Of a stretch of 64,000 bases of DNA, positions 1 through 55,230 are shown piece by piece. This DNA comes from an uncultured Helicobacteraceae bacterium. GTDB lineage: Bacteria > Campylobacterota > Campylobacteria > Campylobacterales > Helicobacteraceae. The stretch is from positions 372,001 to 436,000 of the forward strand of contig CALUUD010000002.1 in the NCBI GenBank assembly GCA_944323885.1. The letters are read 5' to 3'. Position numbers and translations under genes: made by a program. A model generated the notes under the pieces. It searched no databases. It was given only the letters and a program-made list of their open reading frames with translations, and was not told the origin of the DNA. Within the stretch, counting starts at the first letter, position 1; each line of letters starts with the position of its first letter.

Positions 1-35
1 ATAAAAAGTAAAAATTATTAAAGAGATCTATATTT

Positions 36-41
36 TATAAT
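36..41 (+). promoter_or_regulatory. -10 box candidate for trpB
   Basis: A perfect TATAAT lies 44 bases before the trpB start codon, in AT-rich DNA. No clear -35 hexamer is seen, which is usual for Campylobacterota housekeeping promoters. An AAGGA Shine-Dalgarno sequence sits just before the start codon. Confidence 0.4.
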
Positions 42-85
42 ACTCTATTAAATATGAAATACAAACTTATAATCAAGGAATAAAT

Positions 86-1309
86 ATGAAGATACCATAC
101 TTAAAACAATTTCCAGATAATGGAGGATATTTTGGTAAATTTGGTGGAGCATTTGTTCCAGATAAAATATTAAAACAAATGAAAGAAATTAATGAAGCAT
201 ATGATTTAATTGCACAAAATGCAGATTTTATAGCGGAGCTTAGAAAAATAAGAAGAGATTTTCAAGGTCGTCCAACTCCACTTTATTTTGCCAAAAACTT
301 AACACAAAAATATAATGGTGCTGGAATCTACCTAAAAAGAGAAGACTTAAATCACACCGGGGCACATAAGTTAAATCATTGTATGGGAGAAGCTTTGCTT
401 GCAAAATTTATGGGTAAGAAAAAATTAATAGCAGAAACTGGAGCAGGACAACATGGTGTAGCACTAGCAACTGCAGCCGCATATTTTGGAATGGAATGTG
501 AAATACATATGGGTGAGGTTGATATAGAAAAAGAGTATCCAAATGTTGCAAAAATGAAAATTTTAGGAGCAAAAGTTATACCAGTGTGTTTTGGTGCAAA
601 AACATTGAAAGAAGCTGTAGATTCTGCGTTTGAAGCATATTTAAAAGATCCTATAAATTCATTATATGCTATTGGAAGTATTGTTGGCCCACATCCTTTT
701 CCTAAGATTGTTCGTGATTTTCAAACAATAATTGGAATTGAAGCAAAAGAGCAATTTTATAATTTAACAGGTGATCTTCCAGATATTGTTACGGCATGTG
801 TTGGCGGTGGTAGTAATGCAATTGGTATATTTAGTGCATTTATAGATAATGAATATATTGAATTAGTTAGTGTTGAGCCACTTGGTAAATCAGAATCTGA
901 TAATATAATATTTGGCAGTCATGCTGCAAGTTTATCATATGGAAGTGAAGGTATAATGCATGGATTTAATTCTATTATGTTAAAAGATGATAATGGTAAT
1001 CCAGCAGAGGTATATAGCATAGCAAGTGGTCTTGATTATCCAAGTGTTGGTCCAGAACAGGCATATTTATTTTCAATTGGTAGGACAAAAACAGAAACTA
1101 TAAATGACAAAGAAGCAATAGATGCATTTTTTGAACTAAGTAGATTAGAAGGCATTATTCCTGCAATAGAATCTTCTCATGCATTAGCATATGCATTAAA
1201 AGTCGCACCTTTATTGAAAGGTAAAAAAATATTAGTAAATCTTAGTGGAAGAGGCGATAAAGATATAGATTTTATTATCAAAAATTATGGATATAGCTAT
1301 GATGTATAA
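86..1309 (+). CDS. trpB: Tryptophan synthase beta chain, stand-alone (indole + serine to tryptophan)
   Basis: Pyridoxal-phosphate enzyme of 407 aa, the normal TrpB length, that condenses indole with L-serine. The PLP lysine is K95 in HTGAHKLNH, the catalytic acid is E117 in AETGAGQHG, the phosphate loop GGGSN lies near residue 240 and the family end motif SGRGDKDID is intact, so it should be active. No trpA follows; the next gene is ctpA after 170 bases, and what lies upstream is outside the window. Residues after the PLP lysine ([14 protein letters not shown]) differ from the HKINN/HKTNQ versions I recall from trp-operon TrpBs and look more like a clade seen in fermentative anaerobes. An indole-salvage role is inference. 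The start is supported by AAGGA seven bases upstream. Confidence 0.92.
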
Positions 1310-1482
1310 ATAAAATTGTTATAATATAATCTTTATAGGTTGCTATGCCGTAGCTACAAAAGTAATCTAAATATTAATAGTGCAAATAAAATTCTAAAAA
1401 TCTATCTAAAAAGAATAATAAATTAAAGCACAGCTTAGTATTTTTTATATAGAATTCATAAAATTTATTCCTAGGTCAAACA

Positions 1483-2799
1483 ATGAGATATTATAGATTT
1501 ATATTAATTGGTTTTTTATCAGCCTTTATTGCTAGTAGTTTGTTATTTAGCAATTTATTTGGAAATGATGGTCTAAATTCAAATCAGTCAAGATTAGATG
1601 CATATAATAAACTAAGAAATGTAATTTTATCTGTTGAGAATTATTATGTAGATGAAGTAGATATAAATGAAATAGTTAATAAAGCTATAAGTGGTCTTTT
1701 AACAAATTTGGATGCACATTCTGCTTATCTTCCTCCAAAAGATTTTCAAGATTTAAAAGTTCAAACAGATGGGGAGTTCAGTGGCATTGGTATTCAAATT
1801 GCAATGAAAGATGGTGCATTAACTATTATTGCACCAATAGAAGGAACTCCAGGTGATAAAGCTGGATTGAAATCTGGTGATATTATTCTAAAAATAGATG
1901 ACAAAAGTACTATTAATATGACAATTGATGATGCAATGAATCTTATGCGTGGTAAGAAAAAAAGTATTGTAAAACTAACAATTGTAAGAAAGAGTGAAGC
2001 AAAACCTTTGGTATTTGAGATAGTTAGGGATGTAATATCTATAAAATCAACATATGCAAAAAAAATTGAAAACACAGACTATCTTTATGTGCGTGTAAAT
2101 ACTTTTGATAAAAAAGTGTCACAAGAAGTAGAAAACTTGATAAAAAAGAACAATCCAAATGGTATCATTTTAGATCTTAGGGGTAATCCTGGTGGATTAT
2201 TAGATCAAGCTATAGCACTTAGTAATCTATTCATAAAAGATGGGGTTATTGTATCCCAAAAGGGCAAACTAAGAGAAAGTAGTGAAGAGTTTAGAGCTGA
2301 TGGAAAAGCCGTATTTAGTGATATCCCTTTAGTTGTTCTTGTAAATAGTGGTAGTGCAAGTGCAAGTGAGATAGTGGCAGGTGCATTACAAGATCATAAA
2401 AGAGCTGTAGTTGTTGGAGAAAAAACATTTGGTAAAGGCAGTGTTCAAATTGTATTACCTTTAGATCAAAATGATGGGTTGCGACTTACTACAGCTAGAT
2501 ACTATTTACCTAGTGGAAGAACAATACAGGCAGTTGGGATTACGCCAGATATTATTGTGTATCCTGGTGTTGTACCAAAGGATGAAAATGATTTTACAAT
2601 AAAGGAATCTGATCTTAAAAAACACCTTCAAGGTGAATTAGATAAGATTGAAAATAAAATTGTTAAAAAAACCAATAATGAAAATATTATAACAATTAAT
2701 GATATTTATAATGATATACAATTAAAAAGTGCTATTGATGCACTAAAAATTTTAACGGTTGTTAATAATAACCATATTATAAATATTGCAAATAGATGA
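1483..2799 (+). CDS. ctpA: Carboxyl-terminal processing protease, S41 family
   Basis: Periplasmic serine protease of 438 aa. An N-terminal membrane/signal segment (about residues 5-25) is followed by a PDZ domain (about 95-175) and the S41 catalytic core. The Ser/Lys dyad is intact: S293 in SGSASASE and K318 with Q322 in FGKGSVQ, spaced as in E. coli Prc. The family removes C-terminal peptides from exported proteins. It is first in a tightly packed plus-strand run; purC begins 22 bases later. The 170-base gap upstream holds a weak 4-bp hairpin (GCTA/TAGC) and nothing else I can support. Confidence 0.93.
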   Translation: MRYYRFILIGFLSAFIASSLLFSNLFGNDGLNSNQSRLDAYNKLRNVILSVENYYVDEVDINEIVNKAISGLLTNLDAHSAYLPPKDFQDLKVQTDGEFSGIGIQIAMKDGALTIIAPIEGTPGDKAGLKSGDIILKIDDKSTINMTIDDAMNLMRGKKKSIVKLTIVRKSEAKPLVFEIVRDVISIKSTYAKKIENTDYLYVRVNTFDKKVSQEVENLIKKNNPNGIILDLRGNPGGLLDQAIALSNLFIKDGVIVSQKGKLRESSEEFRADGKAVFSDIPLVVLVNSGSASASEIVAGALQDHKRAVVVGEKTFGKGSVQIVLPLDQNDGLRLTTARYYLPSGRTIQAVGITPDIIVYPGVVPKDENDFTIKESDLKKHLQGELDKIENKIVKKTNNENIITINDIYNDIQLKSAIDALKILTVVNNNHIINIANR

Positions 2800-2821
2800 G
2801 TGATGATTTAAAGGAAAAAAG

Positions 2822-3535
2822 ATGGAAGTAGAAAAAAAAGAGTTACTTTATGAAGGCAAGGGTAAAAAATTATATAAAACAAATAACGAAGATTTTGTAA
2901 TAGCAGAGTTTAAAGATGATTTAACAGCTTTTAATGCACAAAAGAAAGGAACTGAATATGGCAAGGGCTCTCTTAATTGTCAAATTAGTTCGCTTATATT
3001 TGAGTTGCTAAATAAAAAAGGTATAAAAAATCATTTTATAAAACAAATAGATGACAATAATATGCTTTGTAAAAAAGTAAAAATTATTCCTCTTGAAGTT
3101 GTAGTTAGAAATATCTCGACAGGATCTTTATCAAAACGACTTGGCATAAGAGATGGATTAAAATTACCATTTACTTTAGTTGAATTGTATTATAAAAATG
3201 ATGAATTAGGTGATCCTATTATAAATGATGAACATTGTAAAATTATGGATATTTTAGACAATGATGATGATATTAATTATATAAAAGATACCGCAAGACA
3301 AATTAATAATATATTAATAGATTTTTTTGATTCTAAAAATGTAACATTGGTTGATTTTAAAATAGAATTTGGGAGAGATATCTATAATAATATAATCTTA
3401 GCTGATGAAATAAGTCCAGATAGTTGTAGATTATGGGATAAAGAAAATAATAAAAAAATGGACAAAGATATTTTTAGAGAAAATCTTGGTAATGTGGTAG
3501 ATGCTTACCAAGAAATATTAAGTAGAATTAAATAA
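2822..3535 (+). CDS. purC: SAICAR synthetase (purine biosynthesis)
   Basis: Phosphoribosylaminoimidazole-succinocarboxamide synthase, 237 aa, the usual bacterial size. It joins CAIR and aspartate with ATP in the purine pathway. Visible family features are the N-terminal [11 protein letters not shown], the segment [12 protein letters not shown] and the signature [11 protein letters not shown] near residue 180. It is followed by purS and purQ, so three purine genes form one block. An AAGGA sequence eight bases upstream supports the start. Confidence 0.96.
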
Positions 3536-3555
3536 AATATATAGGGTATTGTATT

Positions 3556-3798
3556 ATGAAAGCAAAGATTGAAATTTCATTAAAAGATGGTATTTTAGAT
3601 CCACAAGCAAAAACTATTTTAAAAGCATTAGAGTCACTTGGATTTAACTATATAAAAGATTTAAAGACAAGAAAAGTTATTGAGCTTACTTTAAATATAG
3701 ATAACAAGGAAGAAGCATTAGAGCAAGCAAAGGAAATGAGTGAAATGCTGCTTGCAAATCCTGTAATTGAAAATTACACTATAGAGTTAATATCGTGA
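3556..3798 (+). CDS. purS: FGAM synthase subunit PurS
   Basis: Small (80 aa) subunit of the three-part phosphoribosylformylglycinamidine synthase PurLQS. It has the PurS-family pattern: an N-terminal IEISLKDGILDPQ, then LESLGF, then a C-terminal NPVIENYTIE. Its stop overlaps the GTG start of purQ (GTGA), which suggests translational coupling. The large subunit purL is not in this window. Confidence 0.94.
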   Translation: MKAKIEISLKDGILDPQAKTILKALESLGFNYIKDLKTRKVIELTLNIDNKEEALEQAKEMSEMLLANPVIENYTIELIS

Positions 3799-4445
3799 TA
3801 GCTATATTACGATTTTTAGGCACTAATTGTGAATTGGATATGGCGTATTCATTTGATTTATTAAACAAACCTTATACTATAGTCTGGCACAAAACAGAAT
3901 CTCTTCCAAGTGATACATCATTAGTTATTATTCCAGGTGGATTTAGTTATGGAGATCATCTTAGAAGTGGCGCCATAGCTCGTTTTGCACCAATAATGAA
4001 AAGTGTAATTAAGTATGCAAATAATGGTGGTTTAGTCCTTGGTATATGCAATGGTTTTCAAATATTAACAGAGGCAAATATGTTACCTGGTGCATTAATG
4101 AGAAATAAAAATATTTCTTTTAACGCAAAGATAGTTGAATTAGAAGTATCGTCTATAAATAATAAACTTCTAAAAGAATACACTTTAAACCAAAAAATAA
4201 ATATACCTGTAGCACATGCAGATGGTAATTATTATATCAGTAATGACGAATTAGAAATATTAAAAGAAAATGATCAAATAATACTTAGATATACAAATGA
4301 TATAAATGGTTCTGTTGATAGAATCGCTGGAATATGCAATAAAGATAAAAACATATTTGGAATGATGCCACACCCAGAACGTGCAATAGAAGCTATACTT
4401 GGTAGTTGTGATGGCTTAAATATGCTAAGGAATATAAGTGAGTAG
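3795..4445 (+). CDS. purQ: FGAM synthase glutaminase subunit PurQ
   Basis: Class I glutamine amidotransferase subunit, 216 aa, that supplies ammonia to PurL. The nucleophile is C85 in GICNGFQIL and the catalytic His/Glu lie in MPHPERA near the C-terminus. Start codon GTG overlaps the purS stop by four bases, and its own stop overlaps the next gene by eight bases. This argues for a single coupled transcript. Confidence 0.95.
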
Positions 4446-5514
4446 AATCTTACTCTTATTTTTACCGCTATTATTATTTGCAGATAATCAAGCAAAGTTA
4501 ATATATATAAAACAAGAAAATTTAAATCAAAATAATCAAATTTATATAGGTCAAACTATTGCTATAAAATATAATATCTTGGTCTTAGATGATTCATCTA
4601 TTAGTTCAATAGGATTTTTAGATACTCCAAATTCTAATACTACTTTGAGAAATCCAGATTCATCATGGAGTGAACTTAGTGATGGATCCTTAGAAAATAC
4701 TTATTTTTTTAAAATTAATAATTCAAAATTTAGTATACCAAAAATTGAGGTTATAGCTAACAATAAAATAAGTGAAGAAAAAGAAACAAGTATGGAAATA
4801 AGTGGTAATGCGATATCACTAAGCAACAATCATCCACTATATAGTGGTGTTACAGCTACACGATTAAGTATAGATCACTATAGTGTTAAATTTTATGATC
4901 AAAATAGTAATATTGTAGTATTTAACATTAATGCAGATTACTCAAATCTTGAAGATTTTAAACTATATCAAGCATTAGAACAAGGGTTTGAAAGAAAAAA
5001 TATAGGAATAAATCAATCTAGTGGAATATATTATGCTATCATACCAAATAGTAGTAGAGATATTGAGTTTGAATATTTTAATTTAGAAACACAATCCTAT
5101 AGAAAAATTTCTATTCGAAATGCTATAAACAAAGAGCAAATAAGTGTAAATAAAGATATTAATCCTGTTAATAAGGCATTAATTTTTCAAAATATAACCA
5201 TATTTGTATTTTTACTGTTATTTATGGGAATATGGTTTATAAAAAAGATTCCGCTAAAGATACGTATAATATTTATTATGATTATAATTACAATATTATT
5301 ATATTTGTTATTCTCATTAAATTTTAAAAAAGAAGTAATAATTGTAAATAATGGTTATATTACAATCCTTCCTACACATAATTCAACTATTATAGAACAG
5401 GTAACAGCAAATACAAATGCTGAAATTATTAATTCCTATGGTGACTATTATAAGATTATCACAAATGATGGAAAAATAGGTTGGATTCATAAAACTAATA
5501 TAAAGAATAAGTAG
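4438..5514 (+). CDS. Membrane-anchored periplasmic protein with C-terminal SH3-like domain
   Basis: 358 aa, GTG start overlapping purQ. A short signal peptide (residues 1-16) is followed by about 220 residues of beta-rich sequence. Two close hydrophobic helices (about 248-264 and 273-292) come next, then a bacterial SH3-like domain of about 55 residues ending in [10 protein letters not shown]. The helical hairpin would leave both ends in the periplasm. It occupies the place of the hypothetical protein between plsC and the protease gene in H. pylori. Function unknown; SH3 domains of this type often bind cell-wall material, so an envelope role is inference. Confidence 0.8.
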
Positions 5515-5522
5515 GTATATTG

Positions 5523-6239
5523 ATGAAAAATATAATTAAAATTAATAAAATAAGGGGATTGTGGGCTGTAATAAGCACTTCAATAATACTTGCTATAATC
5601 ATAGCATTAATGTATATTTTTCGTCCTATTAATAGAAAGATTAGAAAGTTTAGCAAAGTATTCTTTTGGATAAATGGTGTTAGTGTAGAAAGAATTGGTG
5701 AATTTGATAAAGAAGCACAAATACTTGTGTTAAATCATCAAGGTATTATGGATATTTGTTACTTTGAAGCCTACTACCCTTGGGATATATGTTGGATTGC
5801 TAAAAAAGAATTAGGAGATATTTTTCTTTATGGACATGCACTAAAAGCTCCTAAAATGATTTTTATAGACAGGGAAAGCAAAAAGTCATTAATACATCTT
5901 ATAAAAGAAGCAAAAAAAAAGATAGATGAAGGTAGAATTTTAGCAATTTTTCCAGAGGGAACAAGAAGTCAAGGTGATAGGAATCTATTACCATTTAAAG
6001 ATGGAGCTAAAATATTAATAGAGAAATATAAATTAAAAATTCAGCCAATAATTGTAATTAATACGAGAAAGCTTTTTGATGCTGCAAAGGTAGAAATAAA
6101 TTCAAGTAGAGCAAGAGTCGTATGTTTAGATGCATATACACCTGATTTTTCAAATATAAATTGGTATAGCGAATTAAGAGATAATATGGAAAAAACATAT
6201 CATAATCATTATGATATCATTAATGGAGAAAACAATTGA
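5523..6239 (+). CDS. plsC: 1-acyl-sn-glycerol-3-phosphate acyltransferase
   Basis: Membrane enzyme of phospholipid synthesis that acylates lysophosphatidic acid, 238 aa. An N-terminal hydrophobic helix (about 14-34) precedes the acyltransferase motif NHQGIMD (H72, D77). The glycerol-phosphate binding motif FPEGTRS lies near residue 140. I chose the ATG; a TTG directly before it could add one residue. The gene contains a run of nine A inside a lysine-rich stretch. Its stop overlaps the TTG start of the next gene (TTGA). Confidence 0.93.
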   Translation: MKNIIKINKIRGLWAVISTSIILAIIIALMYIFRPINRKIRKFSKVFFWINGVSVERIGEFDKEAQILVLNHQGIMDICYFEAYYPWDICWIAKKELGDIFLYGHALKAPKMIFIDRESKKSLIHLIKEAKKKIDEGRILAIFPEGTRSQGDRNLLPFKDGAKILIEKYKLKIQPIIVINTRKLFDAAKVEINSSRARVVCLDAYTPDFSNINWYSELRDNMEKTYHNHYDIINGENN

Positions 6240-6871
6240 AAATAATTGTATCAATAATATTATTTATCGTATATGTTAGTGCAAATACTCAAGATGTACC
6301 TGAACAAACATCTAATAATACAAATCAAATTAAATTAGAAAAATCAACAGTAGATCAACAAACTAAAATTAAAAAGGTAAATAATTTTTTTAACACAGCA
6401 AAAATATCCAATACTTCCTATAGTGCTTTTATGGTTGGATATGAGATGCTTAATAAAAGTATAGATAGCAAAAAAAGTAGAGCACAAGGTATGTATTTTG
6501 AACTTGATAGGGGTTTTTTACTTGCTAAGAACATCTTACTTTTAGGACTATCATTAGATGGAACTGCTGGTGGATTTTACTCAATAAATTTAAATACAAA
6601 ACTTGGAGTAAGAATCTTTGATGGCAGAATAATACCTAATATAAGTTTTGGATATGGATTGCTTAACCATACAATAAATAGTAAACAATATAATTTACAC
6701 GGAGCAACATCAACCATATCTATTTTTATAGATATAGGAAGTGGATTTGGGTTAGAAGCTGGATATAGAGTTGGGCTACACCCATTTCATACAACACAAA
6801 AAACAAATATTAAGGTTAATAATATAGGTGCGTTTATGTTTAATTTTAAATTTATAGATTTTAGTATTTGA
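6236..6871 (+). CDS. Putative outer-membrane beta-barrel protein, function unknown
   Basis: 211 aa with TTG start coupled to plsC by a TTGA overlap. A signal peptide is clear (KIIVSIILFIVYVSANT). A polar linker rich in Asn, Gln and Thr follows. The second half alternates hydrophobic and polar residues in short Gly-bounded strands and ends in an aromatic-rich strand (FMFNFKFIDF), typical of small outer-membrane barrels. I do not recognise a named family. Confidence 0.65.
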   Translation: MKIIVSIILFIVYVSANTQDVPEQTSNNTNQIKLEKSTVDQQTKIKKVNNFFNTAKISNTSYSAFMVGYEMLNKSIDSKKSRAQGMYFELDRGFLLAKNILLLGLSLDGTAGGFYSINLNTKLGVRIFDGRIIPNISFGYGLLNHTINSKQYNLHGATSTISIFIDIGSGFGLEAGYRVGLHPFHTTQKTNIKVNNIGAFMFNFKFIDFSI

Positions 6872-6872
6872 T

Positions 6873-7220
6873 ATGAAATACATTATTACTATTATTTTAT
6901 TACTAAATATCGCATTATCTTGTAGCGGAGATTGTAGATCTTGTCATTCTAGCTTAGATTATAATGATTTAAAACATAATATTATGTTGAATTGTAAAGA
7001 TTGTCATACAGATGAAAAACTAGCAAGAGTACAAATGCAAAACTCATGTGGTCAAGATTGTTTTGAATGTCACAGTGTACAAAAAATAAATTCAATAAAA
7101 AATAAAGAGCACAATTCACTTAATGAATGCATAAATTGCCATAGCTCACTTAAAAATACATTAAAAGAGAAATTAAATAACAACAAACCTCTATTTGACT
7201 TTTTAAATAATAAAAAATAA
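6873..7220 (+). CDS. Small tetrahaem c-type cytochrome
   Basis: 115 aa periplasmic protein with a signal peptide and four CXXCH haem-attachment motifs (CRSCH, CKDCH, CFECH, CINCH). Additional histidines could serve as distal ligands. The spacing resembles short class III / cytochrome c3-like electron carriers. It begins one base after the preceding stop and is the last gene of the compact ctpA-to-cytochrome block. Its redox partner is not evident from the neighbours. Confidence 0.85.
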   Translation: MKYIITIILLLNIALSCSGDCRSCHSSLDYNDLKHNIMLNCKDCHTDEKLARVQMQNSCGQDCFECHSVQKINSIKNKEHNSLNECINCHSSLKNTLKEKLNNNKPLFDFLNNKK

Positions 7221-7284
7221 TATTTAGAAATTAAATTTTGAATATTGATAATGCATGATTTATATTTTTAATTAAGGAGTAGAT

Positions 7285-8376
7285 ATGCTTTTAGATTCTA
7301 ATTTAAATGAAGTAAAAGAAGGAAAGAGAATAAGTGCAATAGGATATGCTGTATCAAATAAAGATGATAAATTTAAACCATTTTCTTTTAGTCGCCATGC
7401 ACTTGGGGATAATGATATTTTGATAGAAATATTATTTGCTGGCATATGTCATAGTGATATTCATTCTGCAAGAAGTGAATGGCATGATGGTATATATCCT
7501 ATGGTACCAGGGCATGAAATAGCAGGACGAGTGGTAGCAATAGGAAAAAATGTTACTAAATTTAAGATAGGTGACTATGCAGGAGTTGGATGTATGGTAA
7601 ATTCTTGTGGTATATGTGAAGCATGTAAGCAATCAAATGAACAATTTTGTGAAAACGGTAAAACAATTTTTACATATGATTGCATAGATTGCTTTCATGA
7701 TGATGAACCAACTTATGGTGGATATTCTAATAATATAGTAGTAAGTGAAAAATTTGCTATAAATGTCCCATCTGATGCACCACTTGATAAAGTTGCGCCA
7801 CTGCTTTGTGCCGGGATTACAACTTATTCACCACTAAAATTTAGTAATGTTAAACAAGGTGATAAAGTTGCTATAGCCGGATTTGGTGGTCTTGGTGTAA
7901 TGGCTGTAAAATATGCTATACAAATGGGTGCTGAAGTTTATGTCTTTGCAAGAAATAAAAATAAAGAAAATATCGCAAAAAAACTTGGGGTAAAAAATCT
8001 ATATGATAACACTAAAAATGTAAATGAAAGATTTGATTTAATTATATCTACTATTCCTACAAAATACGATCCAATAGATTATATTAATCTTTTAAAAAAT
8101 GGTGGAGAAATGGCAATAGTTGGACTTCCACCTGTAGGAGAAACTATACCAACAGATCTAACAAGATTAGTATTTTCTGCAAACAAAAAAGTGTATGGTT
8201 CGCTTATAGGCGGTATTAAAGAAACACAAGAAATGATAGATTTTTCATTAAAACATAAAATCTACCCCGAGACTGAAATCATTAGTATAAATGAAATTAA
8301 TGAAGCTTATGAAAATTTAACAAATGGAAAGGCTAAATTTAGATATGTTATTGATATGAGTAGCTTAAACAAATAG
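7285..8376 (+). CDS. Zinc-dependent alcohol dehydrogenase (cinnamyl-alcohol/YahK type)
   Basis: NAD(P)-dependent medium-chain dehydrogenase, 363 aa. Catalytic zinc ligands are C55 in GICHSD and H77-E78 in PGHE. Structural zinc cysteines are C108, C111, C114 and C122. The Rossmann motif is GFGGLGVMA near residue 200. Members reduce a broad range of aldehydes; H. pylori has a homologue of this type. Monocistronic: an AAGGAG Shine-Dalgarno lies seven bases before the start and a strong hairpin follows the stop. Confidence 0.92.
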   Translation: MLLDSNLNEVKEGKRISAIGYAVSNKDDKFKPFSFSRHALGDNDILIEILFAGICHSDIHSARSEWHDGIYPMVPGHEIAGRVVAIGKNVTKFKIGDYAGVGCMVNSCGICEACKQSNEQFCENGKTIFTYDCIDCFHDDEPTYGGYSNNIVVSEKFAINVPSDAPLDKVAPLLCAGITTYSPLKFSNVKQGDKVAIAGFGGLGVMAVKYAIQMGAEVYVFARNKNKENIAKKLGVKNLYDNTKNVNERFDLIISTIPTKYDPIDYINLLKNGGEMAIVGLPPVGETIPTDLTRLVFSANKKVYGSLIGGIKETQEMIDFSLKHKIYPETEIISINEINEAYENLTNGKAKFRYVIDMSSLNK

Positions 8377-26766: not shown

Positions 26767-27789
26767 ATGGATAATTTTGAAGATATTTTCAAATCTATTT
26801 CATCAAATATAAAAACAAAAGATCAAAAAGATCATATATTAGATATTTTAGATGAGTTTATAAAACAAACATATAAGGCAGAAAAAGAATTCAATGATTT
26901 AAAAGAAGTTTTTAGCCTAGTATTAGAATCTATACCAAATCCAATATGGGTTATCAATGATGATAATAGCTATTTTTACTATAACTCATATGCAAAAAAC
27001 ATAGATGAGATCTTAAAAATGTATCCAAAAGAGTTAGATGAATGTGAAATTTTGTTTGATAAAGAATATTATTTGATGCAGAGAAGTAAAAAAAATAATA
27101 AAACATTAATAACTGCAACAAATATTACAAATGAAAAAAGAAAAGAGCGTCTTGCATCAATGGGTCAAATATCTGCACATCTAGCTCATGAAATAAGAAA
27201 TCCAATAGGTGCAATTGCATTAATGCTATCAAGTTTATCAAAAAATATTGACTCTAAACATAATATTTATATACTAGAGATGAAAAAAGCATTATGGAGA
27301 GTAGAGCGTTTAATTAATACCACACTCTTATTTTGCAAGGGCGTAAAAGCAGCAACTTTAAAACACAATAGTTCTGTTATACAATCTAGTATTGAAGATT
27401 CTATAATATACTTTGAATATGGTAAAAATATAGATTTTGCATATGATATCAAAGAAGATTATATTATATGTGATTTAGAATTATTGGAATTATTGCTACA
27501 AAATTTAATATTTAATGCAATTGATGCCATAGAGGAACATGAAGAGATAGATAAAGGTCTTATAAAAATAGAATTTTTCATAAAAGATAACTATCAAATA
27601 CTAAAAGTATATGATAATGGTATATTAGCAAGTGATATAGATAGTCTTTTTGAAGCATTTAAAACCACAAAAATTAAAGGCAACGGATTAGGATTAGCAT
27701 TTTGTAAGCAAATAGCAGAAGCACATGGTGGAAATATTACATATAACTATGAAAATGAAAAATATTTTCTAGTTTCATTTAGATTGTAG
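26767..27789 (+). CDS. flgS: Flagellar sensor histidine kinase FlgS
   Basis: 340 aa, cytoplasmic (no membrane helix). A PAS-like N-terminal region (about 45-110) precedes the dimerisation domain with H141 in LAHEIRNPIG. An ATPase domain follows with N box LIFNAIDAIEEH and G box KGNGLGLAFCKQ. It phosphorylates FlgR to turn on RpoN-dependent flagellar genes in response to the export apparatus. Being behind an RpoN promoter, it may be positively autoregulated (inference). gyrA follows after 72 bases. Confidence 0.9.
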   Translation: MDNFEDIFKSISSNIKTKDQKDHILDILDEFIKQTYKAEKEFNDLKEVFSLVLESIPNPIWVINDDNSYFYYNSYAKNIDEILKMYPKELDECEILFDKEYYLMQRSKKNNKTLITATNITNEKRKERLASMGQISAHLAHEIRNPIGAIALMLSSLSKNIDSKHNIYILEMKKALWRVERLINTTLLFCKGVKAATLKHNSSVIQSSIEDSIIYFEYGKNIDFAYDIKEDYIICDLELLELLLQNLIFNAIDAIEEHEEIDKGLIKIEFFIKDNYQILKVYDNGILASDIDSLFEAFKTTKIKGNGLGLAFCKQIAEAHGGNITYNYENEKYFLVSFRL

Positions 27790-51329: not shown

Positions 51330-52529
51330 TTATATATTCCATGTCAAATTAAAAGTAGTTCCATTTGAATCTGTTTTAATATCAATATTGATATTATACT
51401 CATCACATATTTTTTTTACTAAAAATAAGCCTATGCCAAACCCGCCAGAATCTGTACTATATCTAGTATAACGCTCATATATTTTATTTAGATCCTTAAT
51501 ATTAATACCCTTTCCACTATCTTTTATCATAAATCTACTTCTATCTAATAATATATGTATATATCCATCTTTAAAATTATATTTAATCGCATTACTTAAT
51601 AAATTATCAAATAAGAGTATAAATTTTTCTTTACTACCATTAAATGAAGTAGGCTTGATATCTGTAGATATGCTTATATTCTTTTGTATAAAAAATGGAG
51701 TAAAGAAATTTATTCTTTCTTGTAAAATTGTATCAAGCTGCAATTGAGTATTATTGTTTTCCAAACTATGTGGAAAATTATGTGCAACCAGATCTCTATA
51801 GATTTTGTTTAACTGTATAGAAGCAATTTTTATTCTATCTATTTTCTTTTGTTCTTCTAGTTCTAAATGATCTTTTTTTAATGTTTCTATACTCATTAAA
51901 ATTACACTAATTGGAGTATTAATCTCATGTGTTGCGTCCTTTATAAACATATCTAAAGTTCTTATATATTCATTTAGTGGTTTTAAAAAAATTTTTACTA
52001 AAATAGCAGCAATAATACCTATAATTGTAAGTGTTAAAATAAAAAATACCCCAAATCGAATCTTCATAAAAAATATTTTTTTATCCATAGAACTATCTTC
52101 TAAAAAAACCTTAAATGGAAGTGGTTTTGGATTTGGTCCTCTTGTGTTTCTGATTTTGTATGGCACCATTTCTGGATTTGCAATAATTCTATCTCCAACC
52201 CTATATATTCCCCTATCTAACTCAAATTTATCTGGATTTCTAATAAGATTAGAATAAATTAATTTATCATTTCTATTATATATTGCAAACGGAACTTCAA
52301 CAGTCATAAGTATCTCTGGTATTGCTTTTTTAATATCATTATTATATTTACGCAATATGCCAAAAATATCAAATGAGACACTTCTTAGACTTGACATCTG
52401 TGAAAAAATAATATTTTCTGTTTCCTTAATGATTAAAGAATAAAAACCTATACACAAAAATATTGCACTCGTGCCTAAGTATAAAAGTAATATTTTAAAA
52501 ATTGTTTTTTTTGATGAGCTATTTAACAT
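51330..52529 (-). CDS. Sensor histidine kinase, CrdS-like
   Basis: 399 aa. Two membrane helices (about 12-33 and 153-178) flank a ~120-residue periplasmic sensor domain with a Pro-rich patch (RGPNPKPLPF). The H box DATHEINTPISV carries the phospho-histidine, the N box is DNLLSNAIKYN and the G box GFGIGLFLVKK. It resembles by eye the H. pylori copper-responsive CrdS. Overlaps the regulator by eleven bases. Confidence 0.88.
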   Translation of the reverse strand: MLNSSSKKTIFKILLLYLGTSAIFLCIGFYSLIIKETENIIFSQMSSLRSVSFDIFGILRKYNNDIKKAIPEILMTVEVPFAIYNRNDKLIYSNLIRNPDKFELDRGIYRVGDRIIANPEMVPYKIRNTRGPNPKPLPFKVFLEDSSMDKKIFFMKIRFGVFFILTLTIIGIIAAILVKIFLKPLNEYIRTLDMFIKDATHEINTPISVILMSIETLKKDHLELEEQKKIDRIKIASIQLNKIYRDLVAHNFPHSLENNNTQLQLDTILQERINFFTPFFIQKNISISTDIKPTSFNGSKEKFILLFDNLLSNAIKYNFKDGYIHILLDRSRFMIKDSGKGINIKDLNKIYERYTRYSTDSGGFGIGLFLVKKICDEYNINIDIKTDSNGTTFNLTWNI

Positions 52530-53214
52530 AACAATAGCCTTTATTGTGACTATTAATTATTTTGTCCTTGCCTATTATTTTTCTAAGATTCTTTATATAA
52601 GCTCTAAGACTTAATTCGCTTGGCTCCTGATCTAACTCCCATAATTCATCAAAAATAATATTTTGAGATACATAAGAATTAGCATTTTGTAATAAGAGGT
52701 TTAACAATAAACTCTCTTTTTGTGTTAATGAAATAATCTTACCATTTTGATATAGCATTTTTGATACAAATGAAAACTTAAGTCCATTACCAAAATCTTC
52801 ATATTCATCTATACGGCTTTGAAAAACTCTCTTTAACAAAGTTTCTATTCTTAATTTTAATTCTAACAATTCAAATGGTTTCTTTAAAAAATCATCACAA
52901 CCGACAATATACCCATTTTGAATATCTTGTATACCAGATAATGAAGTGATAAAAATACAAGGAGTAGTTTTATTTGCTTCTCTTAATGTTTTTAATAATT
53001 CAAATCCTGGAAGATATGAAGTATTCAAAAAATGATCACCCTCAGGAACTTTAACATCTAAAAGCCAGATATCAAATTGCTTTTCATATGCAAGATTTAA
53101 TGCACTACTAGCATCATCACAATGTGTAACTTCAAATCCTTGCTCAACTAAAAATTCACATATTATCTCTGATAGTATAAAATCATCTTCTAATAATAGA
53201 ATCTTTGCTGCCAT
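52519..53214 (-). CDS. OmpR-family response regulator, CrdR-like
   Basis: 231 aa. Receiver with phospho-Asp in WLLDVKVPEG and a conserved Lys in LKKPFELLE; a winged-helix DNA-binding domain fills the C-terminal ~95 residues (SLRAYIKNLRKIIG). The loop after the phospho-Asp is longer than usual (GDHFLNTSYLPG). Pairs with the adjacent kinase. A 9-bp inverted repeat upstream of the operon is a candidate target site. Confidence 0.9.
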   Translation of the reverse strand: MAAKILLLEDDFILSEIICEFLVEQGFEVTHCDDASSALNLAYEKQFDIWLLDVKVPEGDHFLNTSYLPGFELLKTLREANKTTPCIFITSLSGIQDIQNGYIVGCDDFLKKPFELLELKLRIETLLKRVFQSRIDEYEDFGNGLKFSFVSKMLYQNGKIISLTQKESLLLNLLLQNANSYVSQNIIFDELWELDQEPSELSLRAYIKNLRKIIGKDKIINSHNKGYCYVK

Positions 53215-53239
53215 GAATTCTCCAAATTTGAAACTAAAA

Positions 53240-53560
53240 TTATTTATTTACATAAACCTTTATACCATATGAATGTGCTTTTTCAAGCAACTTAGAAAAT
53301 AAAGCAATATTCATATTGCTATAATTATTTTTATTAAATAAAAAATTGTAAGTGTCTTTATATTTAACAACTAATTCATAATCACTAGAATCCAAATAAT
53401 TTAACATATCATCTAGTGTATTACTATTTAAATTAAATTTTTTATTCAATGCTTTGATTAGCCCTCTATAAATATTATCACCTAAGTTTTGCAGATACAA
53501 AAGTGACATATTTGAATTTATCTCACATTTCAATAAATAGCTTTTGAATATTATAGTCAT
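53240..53560 (-). CDS. Small protein of unknown function in the two-component operon
   Basis: 106 aa, no signal peptide or membrane helix, rich in Asn, Leu, Tyr and Lys, predicted mostly helical with a C-terminal GIKVYVNK strand. I placed the start at the ATG six bases after AAGGTG; an earlier GTG lies inside that Shine-Dalgarno. It stands between the His-rich periplasmic gene and the response regulator. No family recognised. Confidence 0.6.
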   Translation of the reverse strand: MTIIFKSYLLKCEINSNMSLLYLQNLGDNIYRGLIKALNKKFNLNSNTLDDMLNYLDSSDYELVVKYKDTYNFLFNKNNYSNMNIALFSKLLEKAHSYGIKVYVNK

Positions 53561-53575
53561 AATATACACCTTAAA

Positions 53576-54043
53576 TTATGGCTTAGGTGATGGTTTTGGC
53601 CTAATATGAGAATCCATATCATTTAATTTACCTGGTTTGTGTTCCATATCATGATGATGTTTTGCTCCTTTGTGATTATTTTTTCCATCTGGTTTATCTA
53701 ATCTAGGACCCATCTTATTACATAATTCTGAATTATTTTTACATTGTTTTTCTATAGCATCACGAATTTCTTGTTTTCTAAGTTTTAAATCTTTAACTTT
53801 CATATCATCATAAACTCTATCCTCTTGTTCTCTTATCCTATCTCTAAATTCTTTAGCCTCTTTTTTAGTCATATTATCTATTCGATTTTCTATTTCTTTT
53901 CTATAATCTAGTATATCTTTTGGATCAACAATACCAGATAATTTTATTAATTCATCATTAGTCTTTTTACTAAAATCAGCACCAAAAATAACTCCACTAA
54001 ACACAAAACTGCTAATTAAACTTATTTTAATCATTTTATGCAT
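53576..54043 (-). CDS. Periplasmic His-rich protein, DUF1104-like
   Basis: 155 aa. Signal peptide (about 1-22), then a highly charged helical domain (TKKEAKEFRDRIREQEDRV, LRKQEIRDAIEKQ) like DUF1104 proteins of Campylobacterota. The tail is His- and Pro-rich (HKGAKHHHDMEHKPG, HIRPKPSPKP) and suited to binding metal. A CKNNSELC pair may form a disulphide. First gene of the operon with the CrdRS-like pair, so it is a plausible signal partner or target (inference). Confidence 0.75.
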   Translation of the reverse strand: MHKMIKISLISSFVFSGVIFGADFSKKTNDELIKLSGIVDPKDILDYRKEIENRIDNMTKKEAKEFRDRIREQEDRVYDDMKVKDLKLRKQEIRDAIEKQCKNNSELCNKMGPRLDKPDGKNNHKGAKHHHDMEHKPGKLNDMDSHIRPKPSPKP

Positions 54044-54106: not shown

Positions 54107-54195
54107 AGAATATTAAATTTTAAGTGTGTAATATTTGTGAAATAAATTATCTTGAATTGATAATTTTAAATCTTAATAATATTTCTGGAGATTAT

Positions 54196-55230
54196 ATGAA
54201 TTTAAATTCTCACATTTTTGTAGCTGGACATAAAGGATTAGTAGGTAGTTCAATACTAGAAGTATTAAAACAAAAAGGTTACAACAATATTATTACAAAA
54301 AGTAAAGAAGAATTGGATTTAAAGGATTCTAATAAAGTGGAATCTTTTTTTAGTTCAAATAAAATAGACATAGTGATATTAGCTGCCGCAAAAGTAGGCG
54401 GGATTATGGCAAATAATACATTTCGTGCTGATTTTATATTTGAAAACTTGGCAATTCAAAACAATGTTATACATAATTCTTATAAATACGGGGTAAAAAA
54501 GTTATTATTTCTTGGATCAAGTTGTATATATCCAAAACTATGTCCACAACCAATTAAAGAAGAATATCTTTTAAATGGAGAATTAGAATACACAAATGAA
54601 CCATACGCAATAGCAAAAATTGCTGGATTGAAGATGTGTGAATCTTATGCTCTACAATATGGATGCAATTTTATATCTGTAATGCCTACAAATCTATATG
54701 GGATAAATGATAATTTTGATTTATATAACTCTCATGTACTTCCAGCATTAATTAGGAAAATGTATTTAGCAAAATGCCTTCAAGAAGATGATATAGAATC
54801 TATTATTAAAGATATTGGAGAAGACTATAATGAAATTTTAAAAGAATTTGGAATATCAAAAGATAATATAAATATTTGGGGTAGTGGTAATGTAAGAAGA
54901 GAATTTTTGCATTCTATTGATATGGCCAAAGCTTGTGTATTTATAATAGAAAATATAAATTTTAAAGACTTAATTAAAAATTATAGTAATATAAGAAACA
55001 CACACATTAATATAGGATGTGGAAATGATATAAGTATAAGAGAATTAGCATACCTAATAAAGGATATAGTTGGTTTTGATGGAGATATAATATTTGACCA
55101 TACAAAACCAGATGGAACACCACAAAAACTACTAGATATATCCAAACTTAAAAACCTAGGTTTTAAACCAAGCATAAACTTAGAAGATGGAATAAAAGAA
55201 GTTTATTTGCATTATAAATCAAGAAAATAA
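54196..55230 (+). CDS. fcl: GDP-L-fucose synthase
   Basis: 344 aa extended short-chain dehydrogenase that makes GDP-L-fucose from GDP-4-keto-6-deoxymannose. N-terminal VAGHKGLVGSS (NADP binding), SSCIYP with the catalytic Ser, YAIAKIAG with Tyr/Lys, and WGSGNVRREFLHSID are family hallmarks. The ATG after CTGGAGATTAT is the best start; a longer frame from an upstream ATG adds 24 AT-rich residues with no family match. No gmd (GDP-mannose dehydratase) is adjacent. Confidence 0.93.
   Translation: MNLNSHIFVAGHKGLVGSSILEVLKQKGYNNIITKSKEELDLKDSNKVESFFSSNKIDIVILAAAKVGGIMANNTFRADFIFENLAIQNNVIHNSYKYGVKKLLFLGSSCIYPKLCPQPIKEEYLLNGELEYTNEPYAIAKIAGLKMCESYALQYGCNFISVMPTNLYGINDNFDLYNSHVLPALIRKMYLAKCLQEDDIESIIKDIGEDYNEILKEFGISKDNINIWGSGNVRREFLHSIDMAKACVFIIENINFKDLIKNYSNIRNTHINIGCGNDISIRELAYLIKDIVGFDGDIIFDHTKPDGTPQKLLDISKLKNLGFKPSINLEDGIKEVYLHYKSRK

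Follow-up and report, generated by a model that had tools for sequence, protein, structure and literature searches.

In a 64,000-nucleotide stretch of DNA from an uncultured Helicobacteraceae bacterium (assembly GCA_944323885.1, contig CALUUD010000002.1, positions 372,001 to 436,000; hereafter the window), a gene encoding a member of the DUF1104 protein family stands as the first gene of a putative operon that also encodes an OmpR-type response regulator and a membrane histidine kinase. The order DUF1104-regulator-kinase is an old module, present in eight genus groups of the Helicobacteraceae, in Campylobacteraceae and, with few loci, in two further families, and a direct repeat with a -10-like box precedes many DUF1104 genes and recurs in promoters of MacABC-type efflux pump genes. 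We read this arrangement as an envelope-stress circuit of the DccRS/CrdRS family that would induce DUF1104 along with the pair and MacABC, and give this reading a probability of roughly 0.62; the likelihoods expressed below for this circuit, for DUF1104 as a pure output and for metal sensing belong to overlapping readings. A first-pass annotation of the window had proposed, for the interval 52519-54043, an undescribed four-part metal or misfolding sensor consisting of a secreted helical protein with a His/Pro tail, a 106-residue protein and a CrdRS-like pair, the kinase gene of which lies outside that interval.

Linkage of DUF1104 with a two-component pair

The genes follow one another on the minus strand in the order DUF1104, 106-codon open reading frame (ORF), regulator and kinase, with gaps of 15 and 25 nucleotides and then an overlap of 11 nucleotides between regulator and kinase (Table 1). 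The 155-residue protein matches the DUF1104 profile with an E value of 4.4e-23 (81.9 bits against a curated cut-off of 25), while Pfam recognizes Response_reg (4.2e-19) and Trans_reg_C (1.7e-14) in the regulator as well as HisKA and HATPase_c in the kinase.

DUF1104 is present in 95 of 121 Helicobacteraceae genomes and in 183 of 397 genomes of the class. In the following, genus groups of the Helicobacteraceae carry g-numbers (g1, the genus of the 1.45-Mb source genome G000, is represented by five genomes, and g2 is the H. pylori group), and the Campylobacteraceae are designated f2. Within the loci fetched for comparison, which were chosen and are not a random draw, the family regulator and kinase follow on the same strand, by rule, for 43 of 79 DUF1104 genes. 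Such linkage occurs in g1 (3/4), g4 (2/2), g5 (10/10), g6 (5/11), g7 (4/6), g8 (2/2), g12 (1/3) and g13 (1/1) as well as in f2 (12/14), f3 (2/4) and f6 (1/1), and is nil in g2 (0/12), g3 (0/2), g9 (0/2), g11 (0/3) and f7 (0/2). Start calling makes the other two g12 loci miss the rule; for L111 and L112, which also fall outside it, the called regulator start lies too far upstream. The survey of gene neighbourhoods suggested in the first-pass annotation thus bears out a link of DUF1104 to kinase pairs in relatives, and it does so for three of the four genes.

Among 87 genomes outside g2, both DUF1104 and the kinase were found in 53, DUF1104 only in 8, the kinase only in 5 and neither in 21 (Fisher p 2e-9, a value that relatedness makes too small). 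The table behind this test was compiled by hand, omits the 34 g2 genomes and applies a kinase threshold of E 1e-50, at which G099 (2e-36) and G100 (1e-31) count as kinase-less; G113 is only 56% complete. DUF1104 and kinase are jointly missing from one g4, three g6 and one g7 genome whose sisters have both. In the H. pylori group, DUF1104 has multiplied and is unlinked to the kinase in the four genomes mapped.

A tree of 85 regulators places the window regulator, the DUF1104-linked regulators and the 213-residue regulators of the H. pylori group in a single clade of 57 rows with a support of 98/99, apart from ArsR-like and HP1043/CosR-like rows, labels that we presume from length. The clade also contains a 221-residue regulator of Campylobacter genome G184 that is flanked by hemerythrin genes; on the assumption that a hemerythrin flank marks dccR, we take it to be DccR. 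Different from the window arrangement, no DUF1104 gene lies between this pair and the hemerythrin genes (3.2 kb seen), and the DUF1104-linked pair of G184 is a separate one. In G016 of the H. pylori group, the 213-residue regulator has Asp53 and the kinase has its phospho-His at position 173 when counted from Met33, in agreement with the published CrdR D53 and CrdS H173 (PMC9927306). For DccRS and CrdRS we drew on later papers. Unlike the window pair, CrdRS has neither an adjoining DUF1104 gene nor the repeat before it, but since the regulators share a clade, the designation of the pair as CrdRS-like in the first-pass annotation is upheld. As a separate feature of the receiver domain, a variable insertion directly behind the phospho-Asp loop was seen in six g1/g7 regulators viewed (L082, L083, L085, L086, L088 and the window) and is absent from six others viewed.

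The sensor stretch of the kinase is poorly conserved, with a mean top frequency of 0.29 versus 0.54 for the cytoplasmic part; it lacks Cys in 55 of 56 kinases, and that of the window contains neither His nor Cys. A structural model built from seven sequences (mean predicted local distance difference test score, pLDDT, 79.4) displays a PAS/PDC-like sheet and matches the sensors of WalK, PhoQ, CusS and CpxA with middling Z scores of about 6 to 9 (CpxA 6.0). No Foldseek row for this model reached an E value of 0.001, the best being 0.093.

A direct repeat before DUF1104 and pump genes

The motif that a sampler extracted from 42 DUF1104 promoters reads A.TTCACATTgAcTTCACA.TT; it is a direct repeat of 11-bp period with a -10-like box after it and amounts to 688 bits versus 367 +/- 8 in eight shuffled sets. 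The training promoters, out of 73 ORFs, are those of kinase-linked loci together with unlinked G114, leaving aside the linked f3 loci and two g12 loci, with four starts reset by hand. When one group at a time was withheld, 27 of the 42 held-out promoters exceeded the 99th percentile of their shuffles, the failures including both g8 promoters and eight of the 12 f2 promoters. The site preceding the DUF1104 gene of the window is the best on either strand of the 64 kb, and an 18-mer pattern lies upstream of DUF1104 in all four DUF1104-carrying genomes of the genus. Further sites were noted on the minus strand of the window at 27029 and 41839, scoring 13.5 and 13.2 bits.

Promoters that had not been used for training carry the repeat as well. 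At 13 bits, a score reached by 3 to 4 of 787 other ORFs, it was found before both g12 genes (14.9 and 14.7 bits), five of six kinase-unlinked g6 genes (14.6 to 22.6 bits) and two of three g11 genes; away from the kinase it is also kept by one of two f7 genes (17.1 bits) and by the G114 gene, the latter being part of the training set. Because unlinked genes keep the repeat, the tie between DUF1104 and the regulator in g6 and g11 is independent of adjacency. The H. pylori group shows no sign of such a tie: the 12 DUF1104 genes of four of its genomes lack the repeat. When the scan was repeated for the full set of 79 DUF1104 genes, now extending to where the domain begins, the group counts and the odds given here stayed unchanged.

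The exact sequence TTCACA-N5-TTCACA occurs at three sites in the source genome, one of which (C1:236109) precedes a pump operon, where the predicted promoter site scores 13.4 bits. In G000 and G085 this operon encodes an OEP family protein, an HlyD/MacA-like adaptor, an ABC ATPase and a MacB_PCD/FtsX permease; MacB is thus split into two proteins, and MacA and MacB of G000 score below the NCBIfam equivalog cut-offs. Beyond these two genomes the outer-membrane-factor gene alone was examined. Over the whole set, its promoter reaches at least 13 bits in 17 of 27 loci compared to 3 of 787 other ORFs. The sites are distributed over g1 (4/4), g5 (6/6), g7 (5/5) and g6 (2/4, and 0/1 for a paralogue) and are nil in g4, g12 and g13 (one locus each) and in f2 (four loci, distant matches). 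Two of 29 pump rows were left out, L257 as a partial gene and L240 as the second half of a split one; the outer membrane factor gene of G112 is divided into two ORFs (L240 and L263; G112:C3:353987-355319).

In Campylobacteraceae, where MacB is fused and macA comes first, 11 of 14 macA promoters have a site of at least 9.5 bits at -53 to -69, against a background of 13/787 at this score. Four of the 14 reach 13 bits (background 4/787); as a whole the macA sites are weaker. For C. jejuni, MacABC (Cj0606-0608) is reported to be connected with the regulon of DccRS (PMC11365321), described as a small set of periplasmic and membrane proteins (PMC7118207, PMC11365321). In the H. pylori group, G016 and G006 have no MacB match at E 1e-20.

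DUF1104, the HP0721 fold, DccRS, CrdRS and MacABC are known already; what is new, as far as the literature found goes, is the predicted operator repeat of DUF1104 with its -10-like box and its occurrence in pump promoters. The DUF1104 literature found makes no mention of a kinase link in the excerpts at hand, and we found no paper on DccRS that describes a direct repeat; wider or further literature may describe the operator or the linkage. The word undescribed in the first-pass annotation can therefore stand for the linkage and not for the family, the fold or the relatives of the pair.

Extension of the regulon by pattern search in four genomes was rejected, as the sites viewed lie mostly inside genes or before unrelated genes. 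Exceptions are the two promoters described above and, in single relatives, candidates of three kinds. A small membrane protein family (L228 1565-2143, L229 833-1426, L115 4713-5255, L139 3936-4475), which we tentatively call PepSY-like and for which the L228 protein gave no Pfam hit at E 1e-5, carries the repeat in G111 and G114 (12.6 and 19.5 bits); the source-genome copy is without a good site, and in g8 a PepSY-like gene lies directly upstream of DUF1104 or the regulator. In G111 the 18-mer pattern is also found before pilin-like and outer-membrane-protein-like genes (L209 and L213, named by eye). A triple TTTCACATTAA repeat between ruvC-like and dnaA-like genes of the source genome (L215; G000:C1:427440-427468) resembles the regulator site and presumably represents DnaA boxes of the origin.

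Table 1. Features of the DUF1104 locus, in window coordinates.
Feature	Position	Strand	Description
DUF1104 protein	53576..54043	minus	155 aa; signal-like N-terminus, helical core, His/Pro-rich tail; PF06518
106-aa protein	53240..53560	minus	no recognized family, no signal-like N-terminus; between DUF1104 and regulator
OmpR-type response regulator, CrdR/DccR clade	52519..53214	minus	231 aa; assigned by Pfam and the tree of 85 regulators
Membrane histidine kinase	51330..52529	minus	sensor stretch about residues 37-150; His201 in THEINTP
Predicted regulator-binding site	54122..54143	minus	11-bp direct repeat TTCACA-N5-TACACA; 18.6 bits
Candidate -10-like box downstream of the repeat	54110..54115	minus	TAATAT; read from the sequence by analogy with the aligned promoters

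On the opposite strand, an epimerase-family (GDP-fucose-synthase-like) ORF at 54124-55230 overlaps the predicted operator with its mechanically called GTG start; its relatives begin later, at an MNL start near 54196 of the window. The flanks of the module differ between genera (TauE, SIMPL, M23 peptidase, rpoN, dnaB, competence and uracil glycosylase genes) and share no common theme, for which reason neighbouring genes were rejected as a functional clue.

The two small proteins of the locus

The DUF1104 protein appears to be exported, judging from its N-terminus as read by eye and the conservation of this segment. An AlphaFold model of the mature part, based on 18 sequences, has a mean pLDDT of 75.8 and a modest predicted template modelling score of 0.57, with a confident helical core in the first 80 residues (pLDDT 87-97 by blocks) and a tail of low confidence. 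The model superimposes on the crystal structure of H. pylori HP0721 (2xrh) with a Z score of 12.3 and a root-mean-square deviation of 2.1 over 86 residues, and the two proteins are also related by sequence (E 9.3e-13). The next structural row follows at Z 5.3; this and lower VIA-align rows were discarded as common helix arrangements. Foldseek returned four rows at E values up to 10, of which only 2xrh lies at or below 0.001. The near-identical counterpart of HP0721 in G016 does not adjoin a kinase gene, and the repeat is missing before it.

Following the core, the tail of the window protein ranks in the top 0.75% for His and in the top 0.63% for His, Met and Cys combined when compared to a background of 797 C-terminal 45-mers taken from other ORFs of the loci fetched. 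Enrichment in His, Met or Cys is frequent in the family, where 48 of 73 tails exceed the 95th percentile of this background and 33 exceed the 99th, and the three residues occur in proportions that change with lineage. Because the one f6 protein read has 80 residues, with little beyond the core and no tail, the tail is hardly the common function of DUF1104. The observation behind the first-pass annotation holds: the His/Pro tail is real, the model is helical and the signal-like N-terminus suggests secretion. A C-x6-C pair follows the helical core (window about 53720-53743) in eight of the 20 DUF1104 proteins aligned, and these eight belong to g1 and g7. One further DUF1104 protein (L154 5332-6015) has two EF-hand matches in a Met-rich context.

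Like CpxP of CpxRA and ZraP of ZraSR, of which it reminded the first-pass annotation, the DUF1104 protein is small and helical, is presumably periplasmic and would be induced by the adjoining pair, and CpxA is among the structural matches of the kinase sensor. It gave, however, no match to LTXXQ (PF07813) or Metal_resist (PF13801) at E values up to 1, neither CpxP nor ZraP was among the Foldseek rows at E up to 10, an absence that does not prove a different fold, and membership was rejected on profile. In ten other DUF1104 proteins scanned, only L159, a remote member with LTxEQ-like stretches, matches LTXXQ (0.079) and Metal_resist (0.0044), both below the cut-off. The gene arrangement differs as well: the CpxP gene lies divergent to its pair, whose kinase CpxP restrains, while the DUF1104 gene comes first in the same operon. 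We rate the system as a two-component pair whose auxiliary periplasmic protein belongs to an unrelated family.

The 106-residue protein (109 residues if begun at an upstream GTG) has no recognized family, as first noted: no Pfam match was better than E 0.089, NCBIfam gave none up to E 1, and there was no match among sequences of the Protein Data Bank or phage records. Its ORF is a real gene, since a copy in G111 is conserved at 61% identity with pN 0.226 versus pS 0.76, a sign of purifying selection. Strong matches are confined to G000 and G111, two of 121 family genomes, and no copy turned up in the three remaining g1 genomes, of which one is 56% complete. The remaining 27 rows of the search (E 0.002 and worse) were taken as chance because most lie in long unrelated frames. 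The protein is a lineage-specific extra, added locally.

The proposed circuit and its alternatives

The identities of the genes, their linkage, the regulator clade, the presence of the site at two targets and its survival in two genera were obtained by computation; from these we infer the binding of the site by the regulator, the direction of regulation, the signal and the role of DUF1104. In the proposed circuit, a periplasmic signal would reach the kinase, which would phosphorylate the regulator; the regulator would bind TTCACA-N5-TTCACA direct repeats just upstream of the -10 box and activate its own operon, with DUF1104 as first gene, and, at a distant locus, an operon for a tripartite efflux pump of the MacABC type. 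Exported as a small helical protein, DUF1104 would serve the response as an induced periplasmic partner or effector, most likely by binding products of stress (misfolded protein, peptide or metal, the last through its lineage-variable His/Met/Cys tail) and so protecting the envelope. By analogy, a CpxP-like feedback of DUF1104 on the kinase is possible, and free DUF1104 might perhaps damp it.

A number of observations weigh against the circuit as drawn. By rule, 36 of the 79 DUF1104 genes depart from the order, and the pair adjoins DUF1104 in six of 17 named loci, including H. pullorum L198, H. japonicus L208, Helicobacter sp. 11-8110 L206, Helicobacter sp. 16-1353 L205 and a Campylobacter jejuni-titled record, L204. 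Since four of six g8 genomes keep the kinase without DUF1104, the pair can do without the latter. Long branches, including those of H. pylori-group CrdR, drew a warning from the tree program. G184 has the hemerythrin-flanked regulator in addition to the DUF1104-linked one, and either might bind the pump site of that genome. DUF1104 promoters stay below 13 bits in g2 (0/12), g3 (0/2), g9 (0/2), unlinked g7 (0/2) and f3 (0/4; best 11.2 bits, one cut off by a contig end), and those of g8 are without a good site, too. Kinship within a genus makes the counts overstate independence, which the shuffles do not model. Searches of the source genome with up to one mismatch gave 9 hits versus 8 for a reversed control, of which the exact sites were followed up, and 4 versus 5 with another pattern; given this lack of excess, single sites outside the two promoters mean little. 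In three relatives, the second pattern gave 5 versus 0, 9 versus 1 and 10 versus 8. Two of the three exact sites in the source genome precede dnaA; we set these aside as likely DnaA boxes. At E 1e-20, 26 of 30 genomes have a pump match and four have none, and no good site precedes the pump in G052 and G082 or macA in G235, G216 and G150; five of the 14 macA promoters are near-identical and come from one genus.

The alternative that fares best treats DUF1104 purely as output, that is, as a secreted or envelope effector belonging to regulon and operon that never touches the kinase. The sites that stay with DUF1104 genes apart from the kinase in g6 and g11 are in line with it, as are the kinases without DUF1104 in g8 and g11 and the multiplied, unlinked DUF1104 genes of the four H. 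pylori-group genomes mapped, whose products have been reported from outer membrane vesicles (PMC11394524, PMC13136172). Across families, however, DUF1104 keeps its position at the head of regulator and kinase, beyond what would be expected of an arbitrary output, and we regard a pure output role as plausible with the odds leaning against it. At the other end, DUF1104 may be the periplasmic co-sensor of an ancestral envelope-stress system of the Campylobacteria, comprising the module and MacABC under one 11-bp repeat, with a CpxP-like role on an unrelated fold, from which HP0719-HP0721 would have broken away as MacABC was lost and CrdRS rewired in their lineage; this scenario is tentative, and we lean towards doubting it.

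Metal sensing of the copper type, in which the DUF1104 tail would bind copper or nickel and present it to, or withhold it from, the CrdRS-like kinase, agrees with the clade shared with H. pylori-group CrdR, with the tie of CrdRS to copper and nitrosative stress in a review (PMC9449129) and with the abundance of tails rich in His, Met or Cys. HP0721 is retained on nickel resin (PMC2225478), and the tail of its near-identical G016 counterpart has 12 His in 45 residues; such retention is nevertheless expected of any His-rich protein. We consider metal sensing unlikely, as tail composition is not conserved and is dispensed with in the f6 protein, the sensor stretch of the window kinase is devoid of His and Cys, the predicted target is a MacAB-type and not a metal pump, and C. 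jejuni DccRS is reported to respond to growth phase but to neither copper nor 42 degrees (PMC7118207). Growth phase for DccRS versus copper and nitrosative stress for CrdRS means that the signal may differ by lineage. As for the H. pylori proteins, PMC13413632 only lists HP0719 and HP0721 as hypermethylated, and the CrdRS RNA-seq paper (PMC9927306), whose main text was searched for HP0721 and HP0305, mentions neither there; HP0305, termed a YceI-domain protein in one paper, was dropped as a link to H. pylori.

The four-part sensor of the first-pass annotation, with the 106-residue protein as an essential component, is very improbable: the gene is under purifying selection and sits between DUF1104 and regulator in G000 and G111, but the other 119 family genomes yield no strong match, including G112 from g1 itself, in which DUF1104, regulator and kinase adjoin one another.

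For the envelope-stress circuit that we favour, it follows from the apparent rewiring of the regulon in the H. pylori group that findings from H. pylori and C. jejuni need not agree. DUF1104 proteins are conserved and secreted and have so far had no assigned function, while the signals of CrdRS and DccRS are unsettled; operon, operator and pump target together give both the protein and the pair a testable place. The inducer of the DUF1104 promoter should be the signal of the kinase, and the ligand of DUF1104 may itself be that signal.

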